From assembly GCF_018215265.2 (NCBI RefSeq), contig NZ_CP136562.1, positions 2,170,001 through 2,234,000 of the forward strand: a DNA stretch of 64,000 bases. The letters run 5' to 3'. The DNA is from Paenarthrobacter sp. GOM3 (GTDB lineage: Bacteria; Actinomycetota; Actinomycetes; Actinomycetales; Micrococcaceae). The notes below the pieces were generated by a model. That model saw only the letters and a list, made by a program, of their open reading frames with translations. It was not told the DNA's origin and searched no databases. Of the stretch, positions 5,623 through 59,497 are shown in pieces (position 1 is the stretch's first letter; each line of letters opens with the position of its first letter). Both the position numbers and the translations under genes were made by a program.

Positions 5623-8190
5623 TCAGCGCCCGTAGGCGGCTGCCAGGTAGGGTGCCGTCCGGCTGGTGGTGGAACGCGCGACGGCGGCCGGCGGCCCGGC
5701 GGCGATGATGGTGCCGCCGGCGTCGCCGCCGCCCGGTCCCAGGTCGATCACCCAGTCGGCCCCGGCTACGACATCCATCTCGTGTTCGACCACGACGACG
5801 GTGTTTCCCGCGTCCACGAGCCGGTGAAGTTGTGCCATCAGGAGCTGTACGTCAGCGGGGTGAAGTCCGGTGGTGGGTTCGTCAAGGATGTACAGGGTGT
5901 GCCCCCGCTGGATGCGCTGCAATTCAGTGGCGAGCTTGATGCGCTGTGCTTCACCACCGGACAGTTCAGTGGCGGGCTGGCCCAAGCGAAGGTAGCCAAG
6001 TCCCACCTCCAGGAGGGTTTGCAGGCTGCGGGCGACACCCGGGAGGTCGGACAGGAAGTCGGACGCCGCCTCCACTGTCATGCCCAGGACATCGGCGATG
6101 CTTTTGCCGTGGTACTTCACTTCAAGGGTTTCGGGGTTGAACCGGGATCCTTGGCATTCCGGGCAGGGGCCGTAGCTGCCGGGCAGGAACAAAAGCTCCA
6201 CGGCAACGAATCCCTCGCCCTGGCAGGTTTCGCAGCGCCCACCGGCGACGTTGAAGGAGAAGCGGCCAGGGCCGAAGCCGCGGGCGCGGGCATCTTCGGT
6301 GGCAGCGAACTCCTTCCGCACCCCATCAAACAGACCGGTGTACGTTGCAAGGTTGGAACGCGGTGTACGGCCGATGGGCTTCTGGTCGACCTTGACGAGC
6401 CGGTCCAGCCCATGGAGCCCGGAGACTGACCCCGCACTGTTGGGCACGTCCGGGTCAGCTGCTTCGATGGTCCCAGCATGAAGTGCTGCGTCCACTACCT
6501 CTGCGAGGACCTGACTGACCAGTGTGGACTTTCCAGAGCCTGACACACCGGTCACGGCGGTCAGGACGCCCAACGGGAAGCCGGCCTCAAGATCGCGCAG
6601 ATTGTGCCGGTTGACGTTGTGAAGCGTCAGCCATTCCTTCGCTTCCCGGGGTTCGCTGGTGCTCCGTCCACTCCCGGTGGCGGCCGGGCCGTCGTCGTTC
6701 TTTTGATTCCCCGCAGCGCTGGTAGCAGGGAAGAGGAACGGCCGCGTCACTGACTCCTTCACATCGGCAAGGCCGGCGACCGGGCCGCTGTAGAGAATTT
6801 CTCCGCCACCTTCACCCGCGCGCGGACCAACATCAACCAGCCAGTCGGCAGCCCGCACGAATTCCATGTTGTGTTCGACCACAAACACCGAGTTGCCGGA
6901 GGCTTTGAGCTGGTCCAGGACATCGAGCAAGGATTCGGCATCCGCGGGGTGCAGCCCCGCCGATGGTTCATCGAGCACATAGACCACCCCAAACAGCCCC
7001 GAACGCAGCTGCGTGGCAATCCTCAGCCGCTGCATTTCGCCCGGGGAAAGCGTGGGTGTTTGGCGGCCCAATGCCAGGTATCCGAGGCCAAGGTCGGTCA
7101 GTACCGTGAGCCGCTTCAGCAGGTCGCGGGTGATCGCAACGGCTACTTCGGTGGCTTCGCCGGAGGACTGTTTCCGGGAAGCCGTCCCAGCGGAAGCGAG
7201 TTCCGTGGTTGGCCGGATAACGTCGGCCAGTTCGGTCATGGGCAGCGCGTTGAGTTCGGCGATGTTCTTTCCGGCGAAGGTCACGGCCAGCGCCTCCGGC
7301 CGGAGCCCGCTCCTGCCGCAGCGTGGGCACGGGCCGCTGACCATGAAGCGCAGCACCCGGTCGCGCATGGTGGTGCTCTTGGAATCGGCCAGGGTGTGCA
7401 TCACGTAGCTCCGGGCGCTCCAGAACCTGCCCTTGTAGGGTTTGGCCACCCGATCGCGCTGCGGGGTCACTTCGACCACCGGTTGCTCTTCGGTGAACAG
7501 GATCCAGTCGCGGTCCTTCTTTGGGAGCTTCCGCCACTGGGTGTCCACGTCATAGCCCAGATGGGTCAGGATGTCGCGGAGGTTCTTACCTTGCCAGGCA
7601 CCGGGCCAGGCCGCGATGGCACCGTCCCGGATGCTGAGGGTCGGGTCGGGGACCAGGGAGGCTTCGGTGACTGTGTGCGCGGTCCCGAGTCCGTGGCACT
7701 CGGGACAGGCGCCTGCCGCGGTGTTGGGGGAGAAGGCGTCCGAGTCGAGCTGCCCAACGCCATCAGGGTAGGTCCCGGAACGTGAAAAGAGCATCCGCAG
7801 CGAGTTCGACAAGGTGGTCACAGTTCCCACGCTTGAGCGGGTGCTGGCGGTACCACGGCGTTGTTGGAGCGCGACGGCGGGTGGCAGCCCGGTGATGGAC
7901 TCGACCTTCGGGTTGTGGCCTTGTTGGATAAGCCGACGGGCGTAGGGCGCGACGGATTCGAAGTACCGCCGTTGGGCTTCGGCGAAGATGGTTCCGAAGG
8001 CCAGGGAGGATTTCCCGGAACCGGAAACTCCAGTGAAGGCCACGATGGAATCGCGCGGGACGTCCACGTCGATATTGCGGAGGTTGTTCTCGCGGGCCCC
8101 GTGGACCCTCACGAAGCCGTCCTCGGCGGGGGACTGCGGTGCAGCAGGGTCGGGTCCGGGCCGTTGGGTGGTCATCAGTTTGCTGTCCAT
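5623..8190 (-). CDS. UvrA-like ABC ATPase (short UvrA paralogue)
   Basis: Two ABC ATPase modules are present with Walker A motifs GVSGSGKSSLAFGT near the start and GVSGSGKSTLVSQV in the second half. Both signature regions (LSPGEMQRL and LSGGEAQR) and UvrA zinc-binding clusters (CPECHGLG; CPRCGRSG; CETCQGEGF with CPECQG) are also visible. At 855 residues it is about 100 shorter than housekeeping UvrA, as in the class II/UvrA2 paralogues linked to tolerance of DNA-binding agents. No uvrB or uvrC is nearby. The ATG at 8190 is chosen over a GTG two codons upstream because TAGAGT lies 7 nt before it, giving a leaderless start. Function in repair or drug resistance is inferred from family only. Confidence 0.85.
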   Translation of the reverse strand: MDSKLMTTQRPGPDPAAPQSPAEDGFVRVHGARENNLRNIDVDVPRDSIVAFTGVSGSGKSSLAFGTIFAEAQRRYFESVAPYARRLIQQGHNPKVESITGLPPAVALQQRRGTASTRSSVGTVTTLSNSLRMLFSRSGTYPDGVGQLDSDAFSPNTAAGACPECHGLGTAHTVTEASLVPDPTLSIRDGAIAAWPGAWQGKNLRDILTHLGYDVDTQWRKLPKKDRDWILFTEEQPVVEVTPQRDRVAKPYKGRFWSARSYVMHTLADSKSTTMRDRVLRFMVSGPCPRCGRSGLRPEALAVTFAGKNIAELNALPMTELADVIRPTTELASAGTASRKQSSGEATEVAVAITRDLLKRLTVLTDLGLGYLALGRQTPTLSPGEMQRLRIATQLRSGLFGVVYVLDEPSAGLHPADAESLLDVLDQLKASGNSVFVVEHNMEFVRAADWLVDVGPRAGEGGGEILYSGPVAGLADVKESVTRPFLFPATSAAGNQKNDDGPAATGSGRSTSEPREAKEWLTLHNVNRHNLRDLEAGFPLGVLTAVTGVSGSGKSTLVSQVLAEVVDAALHAGTIEAADPDVPNSAGSVSGLHGLDRLVKVDQKPIGRTPRSNLATYTGLFDGVRKEFAATEDARARGFGPGRFSFNVAGGRCETCQGEGFVAVELLFLPGSYGPCPECQGSRFNPETLEVKYHGKSIADVLGMTVEAASDFLSDLPGVARSLQTLLEVGLGYLRLGQPATELSGGEAQRIKLATELQRIQRGHTLYILDEPTTGLHPADVQLLMAQLHRLVDAGNTVVVVEHEMDVVAGADWVIDLGPGGGDAGGTIIAAGPPAAVARSTTSRTAPYLAAAYGR

Positions 8191-9694: not shown

Positions 9695-10312
9695 ATGAAC
9701 GACACGCCCGCAACGTTGACAGTGGATCTGATCATTTCACTGGACGGTTATGCCTCAGCCGAAGGATGGCCGGGGTGGTGGGGCTTGGAAAGTCCGGAGT
9801 ACCTGGTTTGGCTCGAGGAAGAGGGTAAAAAGGAATTCACCACCTTGATGGGGGCGAACACCTACAGGGTCATGTCGGGCATGTCCGAGCAGGCCACCGG
9901 GGCAGACTCTGGGTTTTCCGAGGAGGAGGGCGCCGCCCTGACCGGGTTGGCTGCCATGCGCAAGGTGATTTTCTCCTCTAGCCTGCAGGAACCTTTGGCC
10001 TGGCCAAACTCGGAGCTCGTGCGCGGAGATGCGGTGGAGGCGGTGCGAAGGATGAAGGAAACCGGAACAGGGAGGTTGATGACCCTCGGCAGCCTCAGTC
10101 TCTGCCGATCCTTGCTCGTCGCAGGTTTGGTTGACAGGTACAGGCTGGTCGTTTTCCCCGTTATCACCGGCCGAACCGGACGGGAGCGAATCTACGATGG
10201 CTATCCGGACGTTTCCCTAGAAATGGTAGGGAGCAGGACGTTTGGAGGCGGGCTGCAGATGCTCGAGTACATTCCCACCCTTATCGACGGCCCACCGGCC
10301 GGCCGAGGGTGA
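9695..10312 (+). CDS. Dihydrofolate reductase-family protein (RibD C-terminal-like)
   Basis: The 205-residue protein matches the RibD_C/dihydrofolate-reductase-like fold: LIISLDGYASAEG at the start, FTTLMGANTYRVMSG, then KVIFSSSLQEPLAWPNSELV and a C-terminal VVFPVITGRTGRERIY. Members reduce NADPH-dependent substrates in riboflavin or folate chemistry, but most single-domain actinobacterial members have no known substrate. The ATG at 9695 follows AGGAG at good spacing; the in-frame start 42 nt upstream lacks one. A second family member lies at 58940, and the two are clearly different proteins. Confidence 0.85.
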   Translation: MNDTPATLTVDLIISLDGYASAEGWPGWWGLESPEYLVWLEEEGKKEFTTLMGANTYRVMSGMSEQATGADSGFSEEEGAALTGLAAMRKVIFSSSLQEPLAWPNSELVRGDAVEAVRRMKETGTGRLMTLGSLSLCRSLLVAGLVDRYRLVVFPVITGRTGRERIYDGYPDVSLEMVGSRTFGGGLQMLEYIPTLIDGPPAGRG

Positions 10313-12277: not shown

Positions 12278-14080
12278 ATGACCGCCAGCCTGGACATCGC
12301 ACCACCCGCTGCATCGCTGCCCAGGGCGACCGTTCGCAGCAACGTCACCGTGCCGCTTCAGTTTCCTGACGGATTCCGGACGACGGCGGAAGTCTTCACG
12401 TTCCACGGCTTGGCTGACGGCAAGGAGCATTTGCTTCTGGCCCTCGGCTCATGGGAACAATCCCTGCTGGCCCCGGACGGCGAACCAGGTGTTGCCCCTC
12501 TGGTGCGCCTTCACAGCGAATGCATGACAGGTGACGTCTTCGGCAGCGAGCGCTGCGACTGTGGTCCACAGCTGCGTGAAGCGGTGGAGGAGATTGCCGC
12601 CGTCGGAGGTTTCCTGCTGTACCTTCGACAGGAGGGCCGGGGCATTGGCCTGTATTCCAAACTGGATGCCTACGCGCTTCAGGACAACGGCCTGGATACC
12701 TACGAAGCCAATCTGGCTCTTGGCCATGGCGAAGACGAACGTGACTACTCTGCCGGAGTCCAGATGCTCCAGGCCATTGGTGCCACTCGAATCCGGCTTC
12801 TGAGCAATAATCCTGACAAAGCAACACAGCTCTCGGCCCTGGGAATGGACATCACCGTCCCGGCGCTCCGGGGCTCGGGATTCGACACGGAACCGCCAAG
12901 CCCGGCAACTTTGATTTCCCTGGTGGGGGCCCTGCTGCCGCGCCTCCGGGAACGCGCATCCGAAACCGAGGAACTGCGCCGTTTGCCCGAATCCACCATG
13001 ACCGACCTCCGCCAAGCCGGCGTCTTCCGCCTCCTCGCACCCAGGGGCGTTGGCGGTTACGGGATGGGCGTGGAGACCTACGCTGAGGTGGTCAGGCAGC
13101 TTGCCCGCGGTTGCGCATCGATTGCATGGACCGCGGGGCACCTGATGGAACATGTGTGGATGTTGGCCCGCTGGCCGAAGGAAGTCCAGGACGAAGTCTT
13201 TGCCTTGGGCAGGGTTCCACTGGCCGCAGCGACGGGTGCGCCCGTTGGTGTCGCCACGAAGGTTCCCGGTGGCTACAGCATCTCCGGCCACTGGAGTTTT
13301 GCTTCGGGAGTCATGCATTCGGAGTGGGCGCTCCTGGCTGTTGATTGCGACGGTGTCCGTCTCCAGGCGTTGGTCCCTGTCGCGGCGCTCGAATTGATGG
13401 ACGCCTGGCATACCGCAGGGCTGCGGGGGACGGGCAGCAATGACCTGCGGGCAGATCACCTGTTTGTCCCGGACTACCGGGTCATGGAATGGGGCCACCT
13501 GAGCGCTTCGGACAACCCCGGCAGCCTGCTCCACCCTGACCCCACACTTCACATCCTCATGGCAACGCTGCTGAACCTGGTGGCACCGTCCACCGCTTTG
13601 GGCGCCGCGGAGCATGCCTTGGAGCTGTTTCAAGCGCAATTGATGGTGCGAAAGGTCAAAAACACTACCGAGGTGCGCCAAGCAGACTCTGTACTGGCCC
13701 AAGCACGTTTCTCCGAGGCCTTCGGACTCGTTGCCACTGCCCGGCTGCATTGGGAGGAGGCGGTCCGGATTCTGGCGGCATCCATAAGGCGCTCCGGCAC
13801 GGAGCGCTCCGGTACGGCGACAGCAGGCACGGAGCCAACAGACACCGAGCGGTCGCGGTACCGGCTATCGCTTGCCCTCAGCGGCCAGGCGGCGGAGGCC
13901 GCGGTCAGGCTCATCGTCGCGGGTTCGGGCGGCAGCGCACATCGCTTGTCGCATCCGTTGCAGCGCATCCAGCGGGACGTGAATGTCCTCCTCAACCACC
14001 CCACGCTCAGCTTCGACCCCATTGTTGAGCAAGCAGGCCGGGGACTGCTGGGCCTGGGGTTCACGGTCAGGTCGTTCTAG
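12278..14080 (+). CDS. Fusion protein: GTP cyclohydrolase II + flavin monooxygenase/acyl-CoA-dehydrogenase-like domain
   Basis: One uninterrupted 600-residue frame holds two complete enzymes. Residues 20-205 are GTP cyclohydrolase II (RibA type): zinc ligands Cys82, Cys93 and Cys95 in HSECMTGDVFGSERCDC, RQEGRGIGL at 117-125, DERDY at 153-157 and SNNPDK at 176-181, all as in active enzymes. Such an enzyme opens GTP to a diaminopyrimidinone ribosyl phosphate. Residues 210-600 resemble group D flavin monooxygenases of the acyl-CoA dehydrogenase fold (HsaA-like), with RLLAPRGVGGYGMGVETYAEVV and ASIAWTAGHLMEHVWMLARWP. A Thr/Glu/Arg-rich insert lies at about 485-508. AAGGACC precedes the ATG. There is no other riboflavin gene nearby, so it probably serves a dedicated pathway rather than housekeeping riboflavin synthesis; the product is unknown. 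It converges with an MFS transporter gene, overlapping 14 bp. Confidence 0.88.
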   Translation: MTASLDIAPPAASLPRATVRSNVTVPLQFPDGFRTTAEVFTFHGLADGKEHLLLALGSWEQSLLAPDGEPGVAPLVRLHSECMTGDVFGSERCDCGPQLREAVEEIAAVGGFLLYLRQEGRGIGLYSKLDAYALQDNGLDTYEANLALGHGEDERDYSAGVQMLQAIGATRIRLLSNNPDKATQLSALGMDITVPALRGSGFDTEPPSPATLISLVGALLPRLRERASETEELRRLPESTMTDLRQAGVFRLLAPRGVGGYGMGVETYAEVVRQLARGCASIAWTAGHLMEHVWMLARWPKEVQDEVFALGRVPLAAATGAPVGVATKVPGGYSISGHWSFASGVMHSEWALLAVDCDGVRLQALVPVAALELMDAWHTAGLRGTGSNDLRADHLFVPDYRVMEWGHLSASDNPGSLLHPDPTLHILMATLLNLVAPSTALGAAEHALELFQAQLMVRKVKNTTEVRQADSVLAQARFSEAFGLVATARLHWEEAVRILAASIRRSGTERSGTATAGTEPTDTERSRYRLSLALSGQAAEAAVRLIVAGSGGSAHRLSHPLQRIQRDVNVLLNHPTLSFDPIVEQAGRGLLGLGFTVRSF

Positions 14081-15356
14081 GCGTTTCTGCTGGGCCCTCC
14101 CGGGGCGGCTCCACAGCCAAGGTGCTGGCCCGGTCCGCTGCAGCCCCTTGCTTCCGGCTCGCCAGCAGGAACGGCACCGCAATGAGCTCGATAACACCGG
14201 CCATGGCCAACGACGCCGGATAACCGTAAAGGTCCGCGCCGCGGCCCAGGAGTGGTTGGATCAACACTCCGCCGCTGGAACCCATCAGCGAATCGAAACT
14301 GAGGACAGTGGCACGCTGTTTCGACGGGATCATGTCATTCACATACGCCTGTCGGACCGGAGTAGCCGCAGAACCCACCACGGCCCACAACGCCAGCAGC
14401 ACCAGGGCTACCCAGAACACGCGCGTGGATCCCAGCACCAGGAGAATCACGGCACCCACCAGGCCGGAGAGGATCATCACTGACGTGCGTTTGTGGAACA
14501 GCTCCCGGGCGTGCGGGGCCAGCCAGCCGCCCAGGATCTGCGAGCCTGCGACAATTGCGGCAGCCAGGCCCGCGATGGAATAGGCTTTTGGGTCCCCAAA
14601 AAGGTCGAGAAGGTACGGCTGCAGAGCGTAAAAGACGTAAATTCCGACGCCGGCGCTAAAGGGAGCGGCCAGCATCATGTACCGAACTGGCCGGTTTTTC
14701 AGGCCGTTGTCTATCGAGGCCGTCAGTACGGTACGGACAGCCCGCAGGGGGCGCGTTGAACGCTCAGGCGAGAAACCGACGTCGTGCATGAGACCGAAAG
14801 CCACTGCGAACATGGCAAGCAGCACCCCCACGCGCAAAAGGAAAGGCACGCCCAGGTTGGTGGCTTGGGCAATCACGCCGCCCGCGACGGACCCAAACAG
14901 CATTGCCAGGCCCTGGACCATTTGCCCGCGGCCAAGCACGGATTCGAGCCCGCCTTCGTAACCGGAGAATCGCAAGGCGTCCACGAGCCACGCTTCGACG
15001 GCTCCGGAAAAGAACGTGAAGCCAAGGCCCAGCAGGACCGAAACCACGGCCCACATCCAAAACGGGGCTGAGACCTGCCAGAGCACGTAATACAGGTAGG
15101 TGGACACGGCCAGTGTCACGGTACCGAGCAGGAACGATACGCGGCGGCCCCAACCATCGGCCACCACCCCGGTGGGGACTTCGAAGAGGACCATGCCCGC
15201 TGTGAAGAAAGCATTCGCGGCGAAGGCTTCCAGGTTGCTGAGGCCCGCATCAAGCAGGAACAGCGTGTTGATACCCCAAATGAAGGACGCCGCCACGGTA
15301 TTACCCAGCGTCAGTGTCAGGTACACACGTTGGATCGTTCGTGCGGCGGGATTCAT
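14067..15356 (-). CDS. MFS transporter
   Basis: The protein is a 429-residue major facilitator with twelve hydrophobic segments and the loop 2-3 signature FEVPTGVVADGWGRRVSFLLG. It looks like a drug or metabolite exporter; substrate unknown. The ATG at 15356 is taken as the start because the first membrane helix begins about 15 residues later; a GTG 36 nt upstream is an alternative. It converges with the RibA-monooxygenase fusion, the two genes sharing 14 bp at their 3' ends. This makes co-selection plausible but proves no functional link. Confidence 0.87.
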   Translation of the reverse strand: MNPAARTIQRVYLTLTLGNTVAASFIWGINTLFLLDAGLSNLEAFAANAFFTAGMVLFEVPTGVVADGWGRRVSFLLGTVTLAVSTYLYYVLWQVSAPFWMWAVVSVLLGLGFTFFSGAVEAWLVDALRFSGYEGGLESVLGRGQMVQGLAMLFGSVAGGVIAQATNLGVPFLLRVGVLLAMFAVAFGLMHDVGFSPERSTRPLRAVRTVLTASIDNGLKNRPVRYMMLAAPFSAGVGIYVFYALQPYLLDLFGDPKAYSIAGLAAAIVAGSQILGGWLAPHARELFHKRTSVMILSGLVGAVILLVLGSTRVFWVALVLLALWAVVGSAATPVRQAYVNDMIPSKQRATVLSFDSLMGSSGGVLIQPLLGRGADLYGYPASLAMAGVIELIAVPFLLASRKQGAAADRASTLAVEPPREGPAETPRTT

Positions 15357-58939: not shown

Positions 58940-59497
58940 ATGGCACTTTTCCAGTACTACGTAGCGTCCACCATTGACGGCTTCATCGCCTCACCAGACG
59001 ACGATCTGGCCTGGCTCCTGCAGTTCGACCAGGTGGACGGCCTGAACGAAAGCATCGGGTCCTTCATGGCGGGAGTCGGGTGCATCGCCATGGGTGGTGA
59101 CACCTACCGGTGGCTGATCGAACACGAGCCGGACAACTGGCCGTACCCGGAAACACCATGCTGGGTCTTCACGCACCACGAGTACCGGGCGCCAGCGGGA
59201 TCGGACATCACCTTTGTCCGCGGTGACGTCCGCGGGTTCGCGCCCGACCTGCTCAAGGCCGCCGGCGACAAGAACGTGTGGTTGGTCGGCGGCGGAGACC
59301 TGGTGGCCCAGTTTGCGGACGCGGGACTCCTCCACGAAATCATCGTCACCATCATTCCGGTGGTGTTGGGCGCCGGGAAGCGGCTCTTGCCGCTGAAGGG
59401 CCCGACGGCGCCCCTTGAGTTGGTCTCGTCCCGCATCCTTGGGGGCGCCGCGGCTGAACTGCACTACCGGATGCCGCAGGCGGTCAACGCTTCCTAG
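58940..59497 (+). CDS. Dihydrofolate reductase-family protein (RibD C-terminal-like)
   Basis: The 185-residue protein has the RibD_C/DHFR-like pattern: YYVASTIDGFIASPDDDLAWLLQFD, MGGDTYRWLIE, WVFTHHEYRAPAGSDITFVRGDV, KNVWLVGGGDLVAQFADAGLLHEIIVTIIPVVLGAGKRLLP. Substrate is unknown; many such single-domain proteins are uncharacterised. It starts 6 nt after a -10 hexamer. Its stop overlaps the convergent PaaI-type gene by 4 bp. Confidence 0.88.
   Translation: MALFQYYVASTIDGFIASPDDDLAWLLQFDQVDGLNESIGSFMAGVGCIAMGGDTYRWLIEHEPDNWPYPETPCWVFTHHEYRAPAGSDITFVRGDVRGFAPDLLKAAGDKNVWLVGGGDLVAQFADAGLLHEIIVTIIPVVLGAGKRLLPLKGPTAPLELVSSRILGGAAAELHYRMPQAVNAS

Follow-up and report, generated by a model that had tools for sequence, protein, structure and literature searches.

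A 64,000-nucleotide stretch of the Paenarthrobacter sp. GOM3 genome (contig NZ_CP136562.1, positions 2,170,001 to 2,234,000; hereafter the window) carries a gene for a single protein in which a GTP cyclohydrolase II (GCH II) is followed by a flavin monooxygenase of group D, that is, of the acyl-CoA-dehydrogenase fold. Both halves come from known families and it is the architecture itself that is new: no paper on this fusion was found in the literature searched, subscription journals and preprints lying outside this statement. In the sequence data seen, the fusion is a recurrent and conserved architecture confined to one genus, soil bacteria of the Arthrobacter group. Sequence comparison gives the conserved fusion, the catalytic residues, no detected flavin mononucleotide (FMN) riboswitch at the scanned loci and a separate housekeeping rib operon. 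The reading that we consider best, with a probability of about 0.45, is that an unrepressed GCH II raises the amount of flavin available to the attached oxygenase.

The fused gene and its distribution

The open reading frame of the fused gene has no internal stop. Its product matches PF00925 (GTP_cyclohydro2; residues 35-193, E 1.6e-51) in the cyclohydrolase half, PF02771 (Acyl-CoA_dh_N; residues 223-305, E 4.8e-8) in the second half and PF08028 (Acyl-CoA_dh_2; residues 438-577, E 3e-14) in the C-terminal part, and the nearest solved sequences include HsaA (2rfq, 3afe), GCH II (4rl4) and XiaF (5lvu). Together with the NCBIfam scores given below, these matches bear out the two-domain reading of a preliminary description made from the sequence alone and support the HsaA-like fold that it assigned to the second half. 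Forty-six different fused chains, each 600 aa or longer and the window protein among them, align across the junction. Both halves are under purifying selection: dN/dS between the window gene and its closest relative, L049 (87% identical), is 0.088 for the cyclohydrolase and 0.16 for the monooxygenase. A stop or frameshift at the junction, which the preliminary description had named as fatal to its reading, was not found, and a sequencing or frameshift artefact is ruled out by the many relatives with an unbroken fused frame and by the alignment across the junction. On the strand opposite the fused gene the same stretch holds an open frame of 433 aa.

The comparison covered 206 genomes of the GTDB genus of the window, the named relatives being Arthrobacter, Pseudarthrobacter and Paenarthrobacter. 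The monooxygenase half is present in 74 of them (E ≤ 1e-60). Fifty-four of these 74 have a frame of at least 600 aa without a stop, and this frame also contains a cyclohydrolase match in all 39 long-frame genomes whose DNA was examined, the remaining 15 being judged by frame length alone. Sorted by locus, duplicates included, there are 71 fused loci (49 distinct chains, two of which, L048 and L025, retain only part of the cyclohydrolase), 15 loci not in one frame and one with the monooxygenase only. At the order level (396 genomes), monooxygenases of more than 60% identity were found only in four members of the genus, the window included, and three other matches at E ≤ 1e-40 are 32-34% identical; at the phylum level (396 genomes), the best outsiders are at most 40% identical. 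No GCH II was found beside or fused to the monooxygenase at 40 outsider loci, which for the most part span just about 4 kb, and no monooxygenase was found near stand-alone cyclohydrolases of the same branch (RibA2, see below) in other genera (0 of 53 loci, up to 10 kb on each side). In the tree, 58 monooxygenases of the genus, 48 fused and 10 in two frames or without a cyclohydrolase, form one clade apart from nine outsiders (99/99).

The preliminary description would also have been refuted by relatives that always show two separate genes; the fusion proved recurrent in the genus, and abutting pairs exist as well. A conserved two-gene row (MHS transporter, M24 peptidase-like gene, IclR regulator, cyclohydrolase, monooxygenase, Cof-type HAD phosphatase and GDPD) occurs in a clade of six (100/100) and in one further genome. 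These seven genomes account for eight loci (L052, L053, L055, L211-L215), L053 and L214 being the same DNA; L211 lacks the transporter and the monooxygenase of L055 is frameshifted. The two genes are separate also in L010/L050 and L216 and perhaps in L217, whose gene predictions overlap. The split cyclohydrolases read keep the C-terminal tail of RibA, broken copies excepted. Either the fused or the split state may be ancestral, the fork at the base of the genus monooxygenase clade being open in the tree.

Judging from these sequences, each half can survive the loss of the other. In L048, from the sister lineage of the window, an in-frame deletion has taken the GCH core and the monooxygenase is open, and G968 matches L048 in frame length and junction spacing; no cyclohydrolase was found in the 13 kb examined of G088 (L026/L218). 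The monooxygenase, in turn, is partial or interrupted in eight of the 74 genomes (G878, G900, G896, G879, G030, G081, G085 and G966), and L059 and L162 carry the cyclohydrolase alone.

The two halves and their families

By its sequence, the fused cyclohydrolase is a second, non-housekeeping GCH II of the RibA2 branch, which is marked by the signature K-L-D-A-Y (KLDAY). The genome has exactly two PF00925 genes, the fused gene and a housekeeping ribA, the latter in a row ribD, ribE, ribB, ribA, ribH (C1:1945362-1948958) behind an FMN riboswitch; the names in this row rest on sequence resemblance, with RibA and RibD_C confirmed by profile. The separate housekeeping ribA expected in the preliminary description thus exists elsewhere in the genome and was compared with the fused copy. 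No FMN riboswitch (Rfam, gathering score) was found in the window or at L034, L044, L049, L050 and L053. The fused cyclohydrolase domain is 58% identical to the housekeeping RibA of the same genome (156 aligned residues), 51% identical to E. coli RibA over the aligned part, 70% identical to the L254 homolog from another actinobacterial genome and 68-76% identical to stand-alone proteins of Microbacterium, Actinoplanes, Demequina, Sinomonas and others.

The zinc ligands Cys82, Cys93 and Cys95 are invariant in 29 sequences and align with E. coli Cys54, Cys65 and Cys67, and Tyr132, Asp153 and Arg155 of the window protein align with E. coli Tyr105, Asp126 and Arg128. The position at which Tyr or Met switches the product in the GCH IIs of S. 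coelicolor is Tyr in the window cyclohydrolase. Its score passes the cut-off of the NCBIfam RibA subfamily NF001591 (212 bits against 148; L049, with the tail, 241.5) and falls below that of the riboflavin RibA equivalog TIGR00505 (156.9 against 205.85), as do the scores of the tailed relatives L049 (182.5), L050 (185.6), L034 (188.3) and the stand-alone L254 (194.8), whereas the housekeeping RibA of the same genome passes with 226.1. As a control for the signature, a limited one, we took the 30 best-scoring RibA/RibBA loci, six of which were not readable: the 24 others have K-[LM]-[RKQ]-A-Y, with R in 13, K in 10 and Q in one at the position of Asp130, while E. coli RibA and the housekeeping RibA have K-I-[RK]-A-Y and the solved chain 4rl4 has Asn at the Asp130 position. 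Across the RibA/RibBA examined the pattern is K-[LIMV]-[RKQN]-A-Y. KLDAY is a simple marker that tells auxiliary GCH IIs apart from the riboflavin enzymes in this set.

The window copy is itself altered. Against L049 it shows a 66-bp in-frame deletion around 12859-12879 (aligned as 10 + 56 bp), which removes a helix and the conserved RibA C-tail motif N..YL..K. The preliminary description called this a complete RibA, which holds for the zinc and catalytic residues and not for the tail. The tail is kept by the other 45 fused proteins aligned, by E. coli RibA and by the housekeeping RibA, and its motif is at least 90% conserved in alignment A2, which includes stand-alone proteins; it is conserved and typical of GCH II, not established as defining. 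Both the deletion and the insertion at residues 511-520 are peculiar to the window copy among the 46 fused proteins.

After the loss of the tail, the cyclohydrolase half may be weak or dead in the window strain. To regard it as a decaying remnant in a protein that works as a plain monooxygenase concerns this copy only and is compatible with all readings of the family; we give it somewhat less than an even chance. The deleted tail speaks for decay, as does the sister lineage L048, which lost the GCH core in frame and whose monooxygenase is still open. The predicted active-site region also appears less confident without the tail: the AlphaFold models of the window protein and L049 have mean predicted local distance difference test (pLDDT) values of 79.8 and 79.2, and the means per ten residues over 121-160 are 59, 66, 71 and 81 in the former and 72, 79, 85 and 86 in the latter, a contrast between two single models that counts as weak evidence. 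On the other hand, selection on the GCH codons is not relaxed relative to L049, the terminal branch of the window GCH is not long (0.052 vs 0.045), and the tail may be dispensable for activity. The dN/dS ratio against L048 is also 0.088, but is not relied on with a saturated dS of 1.8.

The monooxygenase half matches the HsaA equivalog NF045629 strongly, yet below its cut-off (209.4 bits against 450), and is likewise below the cut-off for p-hydroxyphenylacetate hydroxylase C2 (NF045920; 164.9 bits against 650). Its fold is closest to the two-component hydroxylases, in agreement with group D. An Ala aligns with Arg263 of C2, which presumably binds the substrate carboxylate; this comparison of C2 residues by number rests on the roles we take them to have. 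The genome has six PF01613 flavin reductase genes, none of them in the window, and in the genus such genes show no consistent linkage to the pair.

Neighboring genes and the RibA2 branch elsewhere

Table 1. Positions of the fused gene, its parts and two neighbors in the window
Feature	Position	Strand	Remarks
Fused gene, GTP cyclohydrolase II - group-D flavin monooxygenase	12278..14080	+	ATG start, 600 aa
RibA2-type GTP cyclohydrolase II domain	12278..12856	+	residues 1-193 (cyclohydrolase proper ~17-193)
RibA2 signature K-L-D-A-Y	12659..12673	+	codons 128-132
Junction, site of the 66-bp in-frame deletion vs L049	12848..12892	+	
Group-D (acyl-CoA-dehydrogenase fold) flavin monooxygenase domain	12893..14077	+	residues 206-600
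10-residue low-complexity insertion	13808..13837	+	codons 511-520
RibD_C-type reductase gene	9695..10312	+	2 kb upstream of fused gene; judged not part of the system
MFS transporter	14067..15356	-	converges with fused gene, 14-bp overlap; judged not part of the system

The pair of halves stands in at least five genomic contexts (25 of the 27 pair loci could be drawn), and the regulator genes near it vary accordingly (MarR, GntR, IclR). In several relatives a RibD_C gene lies directly upstream of the pair. The statement of the preliminary description that no other riboflavin genes are nearby overlooks the RibD_C-type gene of Table 1, though controls show that gene to be background. As a pathway partner it was rejected: it is found in 126 of the 206 genus genomes with no association with the pair (84 of 132 genomes without the pair, 42 of 74 with it, p=0.37), and in only 13 of the 42 genomes having both does it lie within 15 kb. 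At the empty sites L199-L201, RibD_C, exonuclease and flavin reductase genes follow in this order without the fusion (another gene interrupts the row in L200 and L201), and L205 is the same locus with the fusion. L202-L204 are window-type loci without the fusion, and a RibD_C gene is present there as well. The convergence of the MFS gene had been described correctly, but as a product exporter it was rejected because it also stands in L202-L204. An HsaB-like flavin reductase was rejected genus-wide as a dedicated partner, being present also at the corresponding locus when the fusion is missing. No pyrimidine-processing gene was found to be consistently linked to the pair in the genus, and no SUMF1 or WD40 partner was seen by eye among the recurrent neighbors at the 27 pair loci, only some of these neighbors having been scanned with profiles. 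The window holds a second, partial RibD_C match at 59249-59440 (PF01872, 44.7 bits).

Within 2.5 kb of the 53 stand-alone RibA2 loci, a MarR-cluster gene was found at 27 and a RibD-type gene, in other actinobacteria, at 19; an EamA-like transporter cluster, named by sequence look only, is near 15, and 13 loci have none of the partner types counted. At L098:9118-11189 and other Microbacterium loci, EamA-like transporter, RibA2 and MarR genes form a probable operon, and in two large actinobacterial genomes (L254:7836-8969 and L252:4942-6069) a RibD of swapped order, RibD_C followed by the deaminase, stands beside RibA2. A stand-alone RibA2, 73% identical, follows a LysR gene at L208:14959-15675 on pCZY, a conjugative plasmid of Paenarthrobacter ureafaciens, the strain coming from a nicotine environment. 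A cyclohydrolase of the branch also lies at L209:9959-10624 (plasmid of Streptomyces sp. NBC_01216) inside a non-ribosomal peptide synthetase (NRPS)-like cluster with ATP-grasp, lantibiotic dehydratase and methylaspartate mutase genes. Azapteridine-like clusters with GCH II, SUMF1 and WD40/beta-propeller genes were found at L210, L220 and L221 (Streptomyces and Agrobacterium sp. plasmids), and the GCH IIs of all three carry KLDAY. Clusters of this SUMF1/WD40 type resemble the pseudoiodinine (psd) and toxoflavin clusters as described in PMC9911603. For SCO2687, a GCH II of S. coelicolor, expression is reported to anticorrelate with predicted flux, most such genes rising in stationary phase (PMC2853524); we suspect that it belongs to the RibA2 branch.

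At two further loci, L255:5956-6624 and L253:5875-6639 + 6678-7337, the product-switch residue of the GCH II is Met (KLRAM), and in L253 a creatininase-family gene (PF02633) lies beside the GCH II. An S. coelicolor GCH II of the Met kind stops at the formylated product. In S. meliloti, BrbF, annotated as a creatininase, is described as the formamidase for the formylated GCH II product (PMC9478397), so the creatininase-family gene of L253 could be the missing actinobacterial partner of such a GCH II.

Possible roles and comparison with known systems

Under flavin supply, the cyclohydrolase half would convert GTP into 2,5-diamino-6-ribosylamino-4(3H)-pyrimidinone 5'-phosphate (DARPP) outside riboswitch control, and housekeeping enzymes would then turn this compound into flavin. 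The attached monooxygenase would draw FMNH2 or FADH2 from one of the unlinked flavin reductases of the genome and hydroxylate a small substrate, probably an aromatic or phenolic compound. Fused or abutting, the two would keep a flavin-hungry enzyme in set proportion to the first step of flavin synthesis; in the window strain mainly the monooxygenase may be left. We prefer this reading because natural losses show that the halves can be parted, because the scan of the gene revealed no FMN riboswitch, and because the lux-rib operon offers a precedent in which a rib gene is tied to a consumer of reduced flavin (PMC6409340). In another actinobacterium, raising ribA alone is reported to increase flavin adenine dinucleotide (FAD) and sterol conversion, with a larger effect of ribB and ribC (PMC10251532), and for S. 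meliloti a separate flavin pool has been proposed as the purpose of a second entrance into the flavin pathway (PMC9478397). Flavin supply had been the alternative in the preliminary description and, with the parallels in PMC6409340 and PMC10251532, fits somewhat better than oxidation of the cyclohydrolase product.

Several points weigh against flavin supply. The overproduction of flavin and the substrate are what we infer from sequence, and such a fusion would give no channelling, because several enzymes lie between the two steps. No flavin reductase was found to travel consistently with the pair in the genus; an HsaB-like one is within 15 kb of the pair monooxygenase in 16 of the 45 genomes holding both (19 genomes computed, the other 26 judged by eye from match lists, none of them within 15 kb). 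The window copy, its tail deleted, may not make the cyclohydrolase product at all. Finally, the KLDAY cyclohydrolases inside azapteridine-like and NRPS-like clusters favor a role in a dedicated metabolite.

In such a dedicated pathway, the monooxygenase would oxidize DARPP or a RibD-processed descendant to an undescribed, N- or C-oxidized metabolite of pyrimidine or azapteridine type, which we consider rather unlikely. Fusion in 39 of 39 genomes checked and adjacency in others are what classically marks partners in one pathway, the KLDAY branch is distinct from riboflavin RibA and scores below the TIGR00505 cut-off that the housekeeping RibA passes, and branch members stand in clusters with SUMF1 and WD40 (or beta-propeller) genes like the psd cluster (PMC9911603). 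The RibD-type genes at 19 of the 53 stand-alone loci agree with this, as does the Cof-type HAD phosphatase that comes next in the split operon at 8 of 8 loci (seven genomes). In the genus, however, the RibD-type gene is equally common in genomes with and without the pair, the monooxygenase persists without a whole GCH and the GCH without the monooxygenase, and elsewhere the two were not found together (0 of 53 stand-alone RibA2 loci, 0 of 40 outsider monooxygenase loci). Action of the monooxygenase on the cyclohydrolase product, as first proposed, found no evidence: either half is lost alone and no pyrimidine-processing gene was found consistently linked in the genus. A self-contained pathway protein, in which a KLDAY GCH II would hand a diaminopyrimidinone nucleotide to the attached monooxygenase, with the HAD phosphatase taking off the phosphate next in the two-gene form, is doubtful to us, and a dedicated relay keeps this much credit because of the fusion itself and the branch members in secondary-metabolite-like clusters. 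Co-regulation alone is improbable: an auxiliary cyclohydrolase under MarR, IclR or GntR control, supplying flavin or else 5-amino-6-ribitylaminouracil, a precursor of F420, would have been joined to a catabolic monooxygenase by operon accident, the activities being physiologically separate. The regulators that differ by context, the MarR gene near 27 of the 53 stand-alone loci and the two-gene forms, which look like ordinary operons, are in line with it, but adjacency kept through at least five contexts, usually as one chain, is not predicted by accident alone.

The fusion couples the opening reaction of flavin synthesis to an enzyme whose family uses up reduced flavin. If flavin supply is true, it would be a compact natural form of cofactor feeding, useful for engineering flavin-limited hydroxylations; if the dedicated pathway is true, it would open the way to a new GTP-derived metabolite. 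With a conserved two-gene form, natural losses of one half or the other and intact copies of the L049 type at hand, the question is directly testable.

Compared with RibA of E. coli and with the housekeeping RibA of the same genome, the fused cyclohydrolase has the same zinc Cys, Tyr, Asp and Arg positions and passes the same PF00925 and NF001591 cut-offs; it differs in KLDAY, the score below TIGR00505, the attached monooxygenase and the lack of a detected riboswitch and, in the window copy, of the C-tail. RibBA is likewise a GCH II fused to another enzyme without relay of a product between the halves, so a fusion need not mean a relay; its partner is an N-terminal 3,4-dihydroxy-2-butanone 4-phosphate synthase, whereas here the partner is a C-terminal monooxygenase. 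Unlike HsaA, the hydroxylase C2 and XiaF, the fused monooxygenase is below both curated cut-offs, has Ala at the position of C2 Arg263 and comes with no dedicated reductase gene that we could find. For the azapteridine clusters of the ToxB/PsdD kind, the comparison rests on the stand-alone GCH IIs of the three SUMF1/WD40-type clusters: these three GCH IIs share KLDAY and are 54-60% identical. The lux-rib operon of Photobacterium, as described in PMC6409340, also ties ribA to a monooxygenase consuming FMNH2, but there a set of rib genes shares an operon with luciferase, whereas here a single GCH II is fused to a monooxygenase of an unrelated fold.
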